Part shown: piece by piece, positions 19,408 to 60,467 of the stretch | How positions within the stretch are numbered: the first letter of the stretch is position 1 | Layout of the letters: each line of letters opens with the position of its first letter | NCBI GenBank assembly: GCA_016124805.1 | Contig: WGND01000003.1 | Location: 372,001-436,000, forward strand | Origin: Hyphomicrobiales bacterium | Lineage (GTDB): Bacteria > Pseudomonadota > Alphaproteobacteria > Parvibaculales > Parvibaculaceae | Direction of reading: 5' to 3' | Length of the DNA: 64,000 bases | Position numbers and translations under genes: made by a program | The notes under the pieces: model-generated | What the model was told of the DNA's origin: nothing | Database searches by the model: none | Seen by the model: the letters and a program-made list of their open reading frames with translations, nothing else

Positions 19408-19483
19408 CGGGCCTTGCGGCCCGATCTTCCCTCTCCCCGGAGGGGAGAGGGCAAGCGAGCGAATGCGAGCGCGGGTGAGGGGG
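19408..19483 (+). repeat. Dispersed palindromic repeat, family B
   Basis: Hairpin CGGGCC-TTGC-GGCCCG, then a second hairpin CCTCTCCCC/GGGGAGAGG, a spacer and the terminal GGGTGAGGGGG. The same modules recur at 60395-60467 and around the DUF559 gene at 53407-53973. This copy fills the gap between the convergent ilvE and moaE genes. Confidence 0.75.
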
Positions 19484-52598: not shown

Positions 52599-53330
52599 TC
52601 AGCCGCCTAACAATTTCTTTTTTTGCCATGCAGCGAAAAGCTCGCGCGCCGTAGTTACGATTAGGCCGACGGCACTCGGACCAAATCGCCTCGCTGCTTG
52701 GCTCAGAGGTTCCAAAATCCAAGTTCTCGTCTTCAGAATAATGATTGCCCTTTCACTGCGAAGCCAATCGACGGCCAGGCCTAAATTCTGGACTACATAG
52801 TCACGCTCTTCAGGGAAATTCTCGGAATACCCATTGTCCTGTCGGATAGCTATCAAAGCCTCTTCAATCCTCTCGATTGTCTCGGCGGTTTCAGGATCAG
52901 CTCTATCGACTGGTAAGGGTTGCCAAACATCGGCTTTATCATCATCTATTTTTTTCTCTGAATCATCAGAGTCGCCATCAAGAATTGCGTAACCAAGAGA
53001 TTTCCCTACATGATCATAGTATTGGTCGGTCCATTCATTATCGTAGTCCACCCCGGAGCTTGTTAGTGCGTATTCCGTCAAATTCAGAAACCGATGATTG
53101 ACCTGATACAGCAAGGGGGCGGCGATAGAGTGTCCATTGCTTTCTATCAAGCCTTTCCCTTTTAAATTATTTATCGCAAGTGCAATTGCGTTGTGCGGGA
53201 ACTTTTGCTTCGCCTCTATGTCGCCCAGACCCATAAATCTATAATTTCGAGCGGTGAACTGATCATGTAAAACATACAAAATTGAATCTTGGACTGTTTG
53301 CCAATCGAACTTAATACGACGCTTTGCCAT
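52599..53330 (-). CDS. Unknown AT-rich gene inserted between carA and carB
   Basis: 243 residues, visibly AT-richer than its neighbours, which suggests transfer. Residues 12-65 look like a winged helix-turn-helix (VQDSILYVLHDQFTARNYRF, NAIALAINNLKGKGLIESNG). An acidic linker (DGDSDDSEKKIDDDK) precedes a helical C-terminal part with ERDYVVQNLGLAVDWL and IIILKTRTWILEPLSQAARRFG. Its ATG overlaps the stop of a second, truncated copy of the carA end (TGATG), and it stops 3 bp before carB. It might be a regulator; no family was recognised. Confidence 0.7.
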   Translation of the reverse strand: MAKRRIKFDWQTVQDSILYVLHDQFTARNYRFMGLGDIEAKQKFPHNAIALAINNLKGKGLIESNGHSIAAPLLYQVNHRFLNLTEYALTSSGVDYDNEWTDQYYDHVGKSLGYAILDGDSDDSEKKIDDDKADVWQPLPVDRADPETAETIERIEEALIAIRQDNGYSENFPEERDYVVQNLGLAVDWLRSERAIIILKTRTWILEPLSQAARRFGPSAVGLIVTTARELFAAWQKKKLLGG

Positions 53331-53387
53331 CAGCGTTTCACCTCCTCAATCAGCTTCACGAAGCGGGTGTAGGGATCATGTGAGGCT
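53330..53387 (-). pseudogene. Second copy of the carA 3' end
   Basis: Read on the minus strand it encodes SHDPYTRFVKLIEEVKR and a stop, matching the CarA C-terminus SHYLFDRFVKLIEEAKG. Twenty-six bases (53341-53366) are identical to 54015-54040 in carA. It is a displaced or duplicated end of carA, as produced by an insertion at the 3' end of a gene. Confidence 0.7.
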
Positions 53388-53406: not shown

Positions 53407-53470
53407 CGCCCCTCACCCTCCCACTGTCTGACGACAGCGGGTCCCTCCCTCTCCCCAAAGGGTAGAGGGG
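53407..53470 (-). repeat. Family B palindromic repeat next to the DUF559 unit
   Basis: CCCCTCACCCTCC, then hairpin CTGTC-TGAC-GACAG, then CCTCTCCCCAAAGGG. The copy at 53911-53973, at the other side of the DUF559 gene, is almost identical over its whole length. Confidence 0.75.
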
Positions 53471-53535: not shown

Positions 53536-53973
53536 CCCTCTCCCCTCGGGGGAGAGGGTTGGGTGAGGGGGGCCGCATTTGAAGCGTTTGAATGTTTCGC
53601 GTGCAAGGCATCCGCGCCGCCATCAGACCGAAGCGGAAACGCGCCTGTGGCTGCGCCTGCGCAATCGCGGGCTGCAGGGTTTCAAGTTTCGCCGACAGGT
53701 CCCTGTCGGCCCTTACATCGCGGATTTTCTTTGTGCCGACTGTCTGCTTATTGTTGAGGCCGATGGCGGGCAGCATGCGGACAGCGCGAAGGACGCGGTG
53801 CGCACTGCGTTTCTTGAAAGTCAGGGCTACAGAGTCCTGCGCTTCTGGAACAACGACATTCTCAGCAACACGGATGGCGTGCTCGAAGCAATCAGGCTGG
53901 CGCTTGAAGCGCCCCCTCACCCTCCTACTGTCTGACGACAGCGGGTCCCTCCCTCTCCCCAAAGGGGCGAGGG
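53536..53973 (+). mobile_element. DUF559 endonuclease gene framed by inverted repeats
   Basis: GGGTGAGGGGG (53561-53571) stands 7 bp before the DUF559 start, and its inverted copy CCCCCTCACCC (53912-53922) forms the last codons of the gene. Larger family B hairpins lie outside on both sides (53536-53572 and 53911-53973). No transposase is present. It resembles a small non-autonomous or endonuclease-driven unit; mobility is inferred from the repeat frame and the duplicated carA end. Confidence 0.5.
53579..53935 (+). CDS. DUF559 domain protein (Vsr-like endonuclease fold)
   Basis: 118 residues. RHQTEAETRLWLRLRNRGLQGFKFRRQVPVGPYIADF then LIVEADGGQH is the DUF559 core; D49, E60, D62 and H66 suit a PD-(D/E)XK-type nuclease related to very-short-patch repair endonuclease. 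The start is TTG 53579; no ATG lies in frame near it. The final PPHPPTV and the stop codon are encoded by the flanking palindromic repeat. It runs opposite to carA and carB. Function of this widespread family is unproven. Confidence 0.8.
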   Translation: MKRLNVSRARHPRRHQTEAETRLWLRLRNRGLQGFKFRRQVPVGPYIADFLCADCLLIVEADGGQHADSAKDAVRTAFLESQGYRVLRFWNNDILSNTDGVLEAIRLALEAPPHPPTV

Positions 53974-54003: not shown

Positions 54004-55167
54004 TCAACCCTTCGCCTCCTCAATCAGCTTCACGAAGCGGTCGAAGAGGTAATGCGAGTCCTGCGGGCCCGGTGAGGCTTCGGGGTGGTACTGCACCGAG
54101 AAGACCGGTTTGCCGGTGAGGCGGAGGCCGGCATTGGTGCCGTCGAAAAGCGAGACATGGGTTTCTTCCACGCTGTCGGGCAGGCTGTTGCGCGACACGG
54201 TGAAGCCGTGGTTCATCGAGGTGATCTCGACCTTGTTGGTCGTGTAGTCCTTCACGGGATGATTGGCGCCGTGATGGCCCTGATGCATTTTTTCCGTGGT
54301 CGCGCCGAGCGCGATGGCGAGCATCTGATGGCCAAGGCAAATGCCGAAGACGGGTTTGCCGCTGGCGACGAGCTTTCTGATTTCCGGCACGGCGTAAACG
54401 CCCGTCGCAGCCGGGTCGCCGGGGCCATTGGACAGGAAAATGCCATCCGGGTTCATCGCCAGAATGTCTTCCGCTTTTGTGGTGGCGGGCACGATGGTGA
54501 CCTTGCAGCCGGTCGAAGCAAGGCAGCGCAGGATGTTGCGCTTCACGCCATAATCGACGGCGACCACATGATGACGGGGGCTCGTCTGGTGGCCATAGCC
54601 TTCGTTCCAGACCCAGCGGGTTTCATCCCATGTATATGTCTGGCCGCAGGTGACTTCTTTGGCGAGGTCGAGCCCTTCCAGACCGCCCCAGGCTTTCGCC
54701 TTTTCCACCAGCGCGGGAATGTCGAATTCGCCTGACGGGTTATGCGCGATGATGCCGTCGGGCATGCCGTGCTCGCGGATGCGGCGGGTGAGCGCGCGGG
54801 TGTCGAGCCCCGAGAGGCCGATAATGTTGCGTGCTTTCAGCCAGGCATCGAGATGCTGGGCGGCGCGGTAATTGGAGGGATGGGTAATGTCGGCCTTGAT
54901 GACCATCCCGCGCACGCCGGAGCTGGCGGCGAGATTGGAGGTTTCGATGTCCTCGTTATTCGTGCCGACATTGCCGATATGGGGAAAGGTGAAAGTGATG
55001 ATCTGACCGACATAGGAGGGGTCGGTGAGGATTTCCTGATAGCCGGTGATCGAGGTGTTGAAGCATACCTCGCCGACAGCTTCGCCCGTGGCGCCGATGC
55101 CGCGTCCGCGGAGCACGGTGCCATCTTTCAGAACGAGAAGGGCGGTTGGTTTTTCGCTGTCAGTCAT
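54004..55167 (-). CDS. carA: Carbamoyl-phosphate synthase small subunit (glutaminase)
   Basis: Hydrolyses glutamine and channels ammonia to CarB. Class I glutamine amidotransferase triad: C277 in FGICLGHQ, H361 and E363 in YHPEASPGP. The N-terminal CPSase domain carries DGTVLRGRGIGA and CFNTSITGYQEILTDPSY. 387 residues, complete. ATG 55167 chosen; the 34-codon leader ORF ends inside its first codons. Its 3' end occurs again at 53330-53387. Confidence 0.96.
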   Translation of the reverse strand: MTDSEKPTALLVLKDGTVLRGRGIGATGEAVGEVCFNTSITGYQEILTDPSYVGQIITFTFPHIGNVGTNNEDIETSNLAASSGVRGMVIKADITHPSNYRAAQHLDAWLKARNIIGLSGLDTRALTRRIREHGMPDGIIAHNPSGEFDIPALVEKAKAWGGLEGLDLAKEVTCGQTYTWDETRWVWNEGYGHQTSPRHHVVAVDYGVKRNILRCLASTGCKVTIVPATTKAEDILAMNPDGIFLSNGPGDPAATGVYAVPEIRKLVASGKPVFGICLGHQMLAIALGATTEKMHQGHHGANHPVKDYTTNKVEITSMNHGFTVSRNSLPDSVEETHVSLFDGTNAGLRLTGKPVFSVQYHPEASPGPQDSHYLFDRFVKLIEEAKG

Positions 55168-60394: not shown

Positions 60395-60467
60395 CGGACC
60401 TTGCGGTCCGTCTCTCCCTCTCCCCTCAGGGGAGAGGGCAAGTGCATTTGGCGCGCGGGTGAGGGGG
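60395..60467 (+). repeat. Dispersed palindromic repeat, family B
   Basis: CGGACC-TTGC-GGTCCG, then CCTCTCCCC/GGGGAGAGGG, then GGGTGAGGGGG, the same module order as at 19408-19483. It ends one base before the stop codon of the next gene. Confidence 0.75.

Follow-up and report, generated by a model that had tools for sequence, protein, structure and literature searches.

Why should a small nuclease gene stand between inverted copies of a palindromic repeat, when further copies of the same repeat lie elsewhere without it? The question is raised by a DUF559 (YcjD family) gene in a 64,000-nt stretch of Hyphomicrobiales DNA, hereafter the window, for which the initial annotation had proposed that gene and repeats form one unit, comparable to REP elements and their RAYT transposase. 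The gene occupies 53579..53935 on the plus strand and encodes 118 aa from a TTG start (open reading frame listing and Pfam PF04480). Upstream on the same strand, a repeat of the triplex-motif kind (53536..53572) comprises a hairpin, H1 (CCCTCTCCCC/GGGGAGAGGG, 53536-53558, read from the window sequence), and a putative third-strand tail directed toward the gene (GGGTGAGGGGGG, 53561-53572), followed by six bases and then the start codon at 53579. The downstream repeat is inverted, on the minus strand (53912..53973); its tail (CCCCCTCACCC, 53912-53922) contains C-terminal codons of the gene, the stop codon TGA (53933-53935) falls within a second small hairpin, H2, and the main outer hairpin H1 lies at 53951-53973. 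The two copies face inward, and the placement first described, with one repeat just before the start, the other in the C-terminal codons and the stop codon in a hairpin, is borne out at these positions. So are the dispersed copies without a nuclease, at 19429..19483 and 60416..60467, both on the plus strand (read off the sequence by pattern match). Three points had gone unmentioned: that the repeat is of the known BoxC/triplex kind, that copies can be numerous in genomes lacking the gene, and that a third, inverted copy lies upstream on the minus strand (53409..53469; tail 53409-53418, H1 53447-53469), by sequence comparison a near-identical direct copy of the downstream repeat. The host genome (3.21 Mb, 20 contigs) contains nine exact occurrences of GGGTGAGGGGG against none for the reversed control, and 18 occurrences of the longer pattern GGGAGAGGGN1-31GGGTGAGGG, three of them at the window DUF559 gene, against 0 for its reversed control. 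Because both patterns so exceed their controls, the repeat is not a product of chance.

The DUF559 gene lies between carA and carB. Among the 20 genomes of the genus in which both ends of this junction could be placed, 10 have a gap of 1-6 bp. Five genomes (G001, G006, G011, G019 and G023) carry 600-830 bp there, with open reading frames that appear unrelated by eye (untranslated); one, G004, carries a DUF559 gene, and the host genome carries the DUF559 gene together with another open reading frame. The latter (243 aa, 52599..53330, minus strand), placed in the slot by the reading frame listing, a Pfam scan and junction comparison, gave no Pfam match at E ≤ 0.01 and is probably not part of the DUF559-repeat unit. 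The junction is a general accessory slot, and the idea that it is a specific target of the element is weakened by the short gaps and by the apparently unrelated reading frames. On the far side of the unit, a 48-bp partial duplicate of the carA 3′ end (53337..53384, minus strand) matches the true end, at about 54011-54058, at 83%. A degenerate DUF559 gene in a different genus of the family is likewise framed by a 59-bp duplicate that we read as the end of carA (3′).

The family assignment of the protein is secure: the PF04480 match has an E-value of 4.4e-40 and covers profile positions 5-108 of 109, which together with the inward-facing copies on both sides upholds the description of a DUF559-like gene between inverted repeats. 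In the protein, the only Pfam domain above the cut-off is the nuclease domain, about 105 residues long (a match to MTES_1575 fell below this cut-off). An AlphaFold (AF2) model of the part encoded by 53597-53905 reached a pLDDT of 89.4, and its best structural match was 3hrl, the crystal structure of a Neisseria DUF559 protein (E = 3.8e-9), followed by the homing endonuclease I-Bth0305I (5e-5); Vsr came sixth (6e-3), after two Toxoplasma mitoribosomal chains. A sequence profile search agreed with this ranking (3hrl, 7e-37; 3r3p, 6e-4). By the model, the window protein would have a PD-(D/E)XK/Vsr-like fold. E14, D43, E54, D56, H60 and D66 are among the residues invariant in an alignment of 22 sequences, and these acidic and histidine residues may form a putative EDxHD-type active site. 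In nine of ten DUF559 gene pairs dN/dS was 0.03-0.19 (the tenth was not computable); judged by these ratios, the gene is under purifying selection. YcjD was already predicted to be a PD-(D/E)XK member in a 2005 paper, in which its profile finds Vsr (PMC1189080).

The relationship to Vsr suggests one explanation: DUF559 proteins could be Vsr-type nucleases of very-short-patch mismatch repair that serve a cytosine methyltransferase, the repeats travelling along or providing a ribosome-binding site or terminator. Published work lends this some weight. VsrA of Caulobacter is a DUF559 protein and was proposed to be a mismatch-repair enzyme; there is genetic evidence that it damages DNA when the methyltransferase is lost, and the SOS induction that follows loss of the cytosine methyltransferase is due to VsrA, which is functionally linked to ScmA methylation (PMC12907096). 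The Deinococcus DUF559 gene DR_0221 is listed as up-regulated without cytosine methylation (PMC6712171). However, the closest characterised fold is that of a homing endonuclease, ahead of Vsr. VsrA carries the DUF559 domain and Vsr is a weaker fold match, yet no repeat partner is described for either in the text examined. The I-Bth0305I enzymes are the second-best solved structure by both fold and sequence profile, but the window gene, as read from the gene map, is free-standing and bounded by repeats in the intergenic space between carA and carB, and does not lie inside an intron.

Flanking repeats proved to be a feature of DUF559 genes well beyond the window. The first sample had two parts: 61 genomes (the host genome and 60 relatives), 32 of which gave a DUF559 match, with further copies added; and the best 80 of 579 confirmed relatives from named species genomes, by their titles alpha-, beta-, gamma- and deltaproteobacteria, Chloroflexi and others. 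Since these 80 are the closest relatives of the DUF559 protein alignment, distant DUF559 proteins are under-sampled. One full-length match in the genus (in G005) stayed outside the locus set, and partial or large-protein matches (L035-L038) were excluded before inverted-repeat scoring. When the upstream flank was compared with the reverse complement of the downstream flank, 92 of 126 loci scored at least 15, or 91 of 125 once L101 was removed, as its score is an artefact of N runs; the same score was reached by 0.3% of 8209 same-locus control windows and 13.8% of 1251 crossed pairs. Hairpins with a pyrimidine 5′ arm within 250 bp of the DUF559 gene were found on both sides in 95 of 125 loci and on any side in 121, compared with 4 and 79 of 811 controls. 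Two loci, L059 and L081, entered the inverted-repeat and hairpin counts of this sample and the protein tree, and were left out of the pairing, mirror, orientation, dN/dS, intergenic-gap and 3′-end-copy counts. Their contigs are titled Phycisphaeraceae and Parvibaculum; their DUF559 proteins are almost identical to those of L050 and L039 from the window's genus, so that both are probably mis-binned.

A second sample gave a similar picture. From 249 evenly drawn genomes of the phylum, 98 with a DUF559 match, we took 109 loci in 63 proteobacterial genomes, comprising 29 new ones and 80 more by score; 12 matches were passed over (five in G047 and seven others) and weaker ones omitted, with no choice by flanks, and at 95% over 500 bp the two samples have no locus in common. 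On any side, 108 of the 109 had a pyrimidine-arm hairpin within 250 bp, 78 had one on both sides, and 77 reached the inverted-repeat score of at least 15; the corresponding control counts were 119, 6 and 7 of 1085. Judged from these flanks, repeats beside DUF559 genes are near-universal in the sampled loci. The initial annotation had named the opposite outcome, DUF559 genes usually lacking such repeats, as a reason to abandon its proposal; tested in both samples, this did not occur.

Such figures bear on a further alternative, namely that intergenic repeats gather by coincidence around a small accessory gene. The intergenic position of the known E. coli copies (PMC4666352) and the nature of the carA-carB junction as an accessory slot are in its favour. 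When only intergenic gaps were compared, however, a hairpin was present in 195 of 218 DUF559 gaps and 10 of 88 other gaps, and on both sides in 80 of 99 and 0 of 12, respectively. The orientation bias and the within-genome pairing described below argue in the same direction, and we regard coincidence as scarcely credible. Chance and intergenic bias were ruled out by the hairpin controls, the intergenic gaps, the clade pairing and the second sample.

Certain host genes are preceded by a DUF559 unit in more than one genome (L010 and L048; L032, L049, L056 and L057), and by eye these host genes read as ruvA and asd. In Klebsiella pneumoniae (L172), a broken DUF559 gene lies between cysP and a Dyp-type peroxidase gene, and triplex-motif repeats persist downstream of it.

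Each repeat copy combines H1, whose 5′ arm is pyrimidine, with a G-rich tail; some copies also have H2, which varies in sequence. Pairing in H2, with stems of at least 6, was seen in 54% of 50 distinct loops of type A and 95% of 43 of type B, compared with about 2% of shuffles. A block matching the mirror image of the arm at 0.88 or better stood beside 204 of 230 hairpins and a direct copy beside 149 of 230, both counted without a shuffled control. Among the 175 asymmetric hairpins, again without a shuffled control, the tail fitted the mirror of the purine arm better in 96 and the direct order better in 11, with 68 ties. A G-quadruplex and plain direct repetition were both weighed as rules for the tail; on this comparison mirror order fits better than direct order. 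The tail therefore appears to be mostly a mirror of the H1 purine arm, a layout that would suit an intrastrand triplex in which the tail supplies the third strand.

The tails have a preferred direction. The nearest upstream tail pointed in toward the gene at 74 loci and out at 13, with 8 ties and 15 loci where no tail was found; downstream, 60 pointed in and 11 out, with 7 ties and 9 without a tail. Where both sides had tails, both pointed in at 47 loci and both out at 5. Two repeat types of the genus break this inward rule: ACCCTCC (upstream 4 out and 9 without a tail; downstream 2 in, 2 out and 5 without) and, upstream,.CCTCCC (1 in, 5 out). The first in-frame start codon came within 20 nt of an inward upstream tail at 49 of 61 loci, and the stop codon lay in or beyond an inward downstream tail at 50 of 60, both counts being without a control. 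The short distance between tail and start codon at most inward-tail loci is what a ribosome-binding role of the repeat, as in the mismatch-repair explanation, would lead one to expect.

The three-block, G/C-rich layout is shared with the BoxC/PIT/TM repeats, which have been known in E. coli since the 1990s and likewise occur in inverted pairs (PMC4666352). According to that survey, MG1655 has 23 such triplex motifs, all intergenic there, and the motif occurs in >260 genomes; the repeats block polymerase in vitro and are tied to genome instability and unstable loci, and mobility activity was "never" found near them. Triplex formation was reported in vitro for the E. coli motif, and footprinting in E. 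coli cells gave no support for it (PMC4666352). The terms "DUF559", "ycjD" and "nuclease" were not found in the main text of the survey. What sets the loci studied here apart is a nuclease as candidate partner, together with several repeat types that are each specific to a clade. In the open-access literature searched we found no paper linking DUF559 or YcjD to these repeats; a report may exist elsewhere, among the subscription papers and supplements outside it.

Sequence comparison shows that the H1 arms differ between DUF559 clades. On a tree of 125 proteins, with 64 of its 122 inner branches open, the arm type changed 39 times among 120 labelled loci, compared with at least 61 times in 200 shuffles. 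Within the window's genus, 34 loci with five types required 5 changes, compared with at least 6 in all 500 within-genome shuffles (mean 14.4). Labels were assigned automatically except for L016 and L018, which were set by eye; the label of L042 is probably wrong, and with it corrected the observed 5 changes would probably fall. By this sequence comparison, DUF559 genes from separate clades retain distinct repeat types even when they share a genome, a pattern that would not arise from a general surplus of intergenic repeats. Nor do clade-specific repeat types in one genome follow from a mismatch-repair role.

In E. coli the DUF559 gene, ycjD, lies between sapF and fabI beside repeats of BoxC layout (the layouts were compared, not the sequence table of PMC4666352). 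In 3364 of 5426 E. coli genomes a match spanned at least 80% of ycjD plus repeat; for the sapF-fabI stretch the number was 3362. In three strains without ycjD, one of them O157:H7, an efflux locus follows sapF; the fabI side was seen in one. Copy number was compared in 60 genomes listed at even steps. The 37 with ycjD had 11-26 other matching places (median 18), whereas the 23 without it had 1-19 (median 5, a single genome reaching 19), and in these 23 the best place always fell in the repeat end of the query. The association between ycjD and the number of repeat places has p=4e-9 among the 60 genomes, by a statistic that ignores phylogroup. Mismatch repair predicts neither the genome-wide dispersal of the repeats nor the higher copy numbers in E. 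coli genomes that carry ycjD, and taking the fold, the literature and the pairing together we consider that explanation unlikely.

The E. coli numbers could also mean that DUF559 is a resolvase of repeat triplexes or cruciforms that serves the host and is hence kept in repeat-rich genomes. The greater abundance of repeats where the gene is present fits this, as do the polymerase blocks in vitro and the marking of unstable loci (PMC4666352). It leaves unexplained, however, why repeats stand on both sides of the gene, mostly facing inward, and why the unit is found at unrelated sites. A host-serving resolvase therefore seems to us rather improbable.

K-12 carries a second version of 27 bp from the ycjD 3′ end, matching at 26 of 27 bases and lying downstream between the repeats. 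Capture of gene ends between repeats has been reported for RAYT genes and BIMEs (PMC2817692). When copied gene 3′ ends were scored at 125 loci (123 and two E. coli strains), K-12 reached 24, the next locus (L053) 16 and shuffled flanks at most 14. As a general feature of DUF559 loci the copied end was rejected, since K-12 alone is clear and the second E. coli strain is not outstanding.

Dispersal was followed more closely in the window's genus. Per-genome counts of the type B repeat range from 0 to 137; the reversed control gave 0 in all 27 genomes. In G014, where the places were listed, many type B copies form inverted pairs with starts about 92 bp apart. These doublets of about 180 bp have complementary outer ends, and some of G024, G013 and G011 have nothing, or no more than a remnant of them, at the corresponding site; the sites are too diverged for target-site duplications to be called. 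Each of the 11 genomes that carry a type B gene has at least 16 copies; among the 16 without it, eight have none and the rest 1-41 (p=1.4e-4, by a statistic that ignores phylogeny, with G009, the genome of L042, counted as type B by eye). For type A the association of gene and copy number is weak (p=0.053, likewise ignoring phylogeny). Some genomes have many copies and no DUF559 gene that we could find, namely G003 with 40 of type A and G021 and G012 with 41 and 32 of type B, some of these assemblies being incomplete; repeats may outlast loss of the gene for a while. At some related-genome sites of triplex doublets or the DUF559 unit (L227, L233 and L269), another palindromic repeat with GCCGGGG-type arms was seen, and in L022 (2350-3250) lies yet another short repeat, dispersed and matched many times in G018, G026, G013, G022 and G001.

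Occupied and unoccupied sites allow the boundaries of the unit to be examined. The best pair is a site where G011 has a doublet-gene-doublet arrangement and G014 has 143 bp of unrelated DNA, with flanks 88-93% identical; no target-site duplication or sharp insertion boundary was evident there, and by eye G013 and G026 retain a lone hairpin. A further site was located by its downstream gene alone; among 16 genomes the DUF559 gene was present there in three, repeats without the gene in four and, with the patterns used, neither in nine, some of which are on short contigs. The initial annotation had asked whether the repeats define insertion boundaries. They do so in part: no target-site duplication was evident at the best pair, and the carA-carB junction is an accessory slot.

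The same sites are relevant to the possibility of a true transposable element, in which DUF559, alone or with host enzymes, would excise and insert the repeat-bounded unit and the doublets would be MITEs. Inverted ends that mostly face inward, and doublets with complementary ends that one species carries and others lack at the corresponding site, are what such an element would leave. A lone nuclease domain of about 105 residues is little equipment for it, though, no target-site duplication was evident at the G011/G014 site, and the recurrent positions (carA-carB, and asd by eye) fit vertical inheritance as well. We consider a transposable element of this kind quite improbable.

A hidden RAYT partner was also considered and rejected for the genus, as the Y1 transposase (PF01797) is absent from 26 of its 27 genomes, the host genome included. 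The sole genome with a Y1 transposase, G019, has 0 copies of repeat pattern A or B.

The parallel with RAYT/REP systems (features taken from PMC2817692, PMC3116915 and PMC8266576) nevertheless holds for much of the arrangement. As there, the gene lies between two inverted palindromic repeats (on both sides in the window, and at most loci elsewhere, mostly oriented inward), gene and repeat co-vary by clade, and inverted doublets are dispersed. Repeats also tend to be more numerous where the gene is present, among E. coli genomes and for type B, with only a weak trend for type A, and the gene 3′ end is copied between repeats, clearly only in E. coli K-12. The two systems differ in the enzyme, here a predicted PD-(D/E)XK/Vsr-like nuclease with no match to PF01797 and not an HUH Y1 transposase; in the repeat, here with a third block in mostly mirror order; and in the lack of a GTAG/CGTC tag beside the hairpins (by eye, in the window copies). 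We therefore class the unit as REPtron-like, and not as a REPtron, because most RAYT/REP features match while the enzyme is not HUH and Y1 is absent from 26 of the 27 genus genomes.

The reading we favour is that the gene and its flanking repeats constitute one unit of selfish type, a counterpart of the RAYT/REP REPtron that uses a different enzyme, with the nuclease matched to its own repeat type and the repeats spread by break-induced copying; we give it an even chance of being correct. DUF559 would in this case be a nuclease similar to Vsr and I-Bth0305I whose cognate repeat is a hairpin with a mirror-image third strand. The protein may nick or cut that repeat where it is folded in single-stranded or supercoiled DNA, and repair or replication restart could then use sequence elsewhere in the genome as the source for a new copy of a repeat, of a doublet or, at times, of the complete repeat-gene-repeat unit. 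The copying would be homing-like and break-induced, and would involve no transposase. We prefer this nick- or cut-and-copy scheme because the modelled fold resembles that of a homing endonuclease and because of the arrangement read from the sequence. A broader claim, which we put forward tentatively and hold to have somewhat less than an even chance, is that DUF559 nucleases drive a widespread, transposase-free class of mobile DNA, in which each clade recognises its own triplex-forming repeat, cutting leads to copying of repeats, doublets and gene, and BoxC and related repeats are its non-autonomous copies.

These results give an old and unexplained class of bacterial repeats, BoxC/PIT/TM, a candidate protein partner, the main survey having found none in the text seen (PMC4666352), and they give the predicted nuclease YcjD/DUF559 a candidate repeat substrate, none having been proposed in the text examined. 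Joining YcjD and the BoxC repeats makes both questions directly testable in E. coli K-12. If the link is functional, a superfamily unrelated to HUH transposases would have converged on the selfish arrangement of RAYT and REP, and the target of DUF559 may be a triplex-capable DNA fold. Should the broader claim be true, the instability reported at BoxC-type loci would be the footprint of DUF559-driven mobile DNA.
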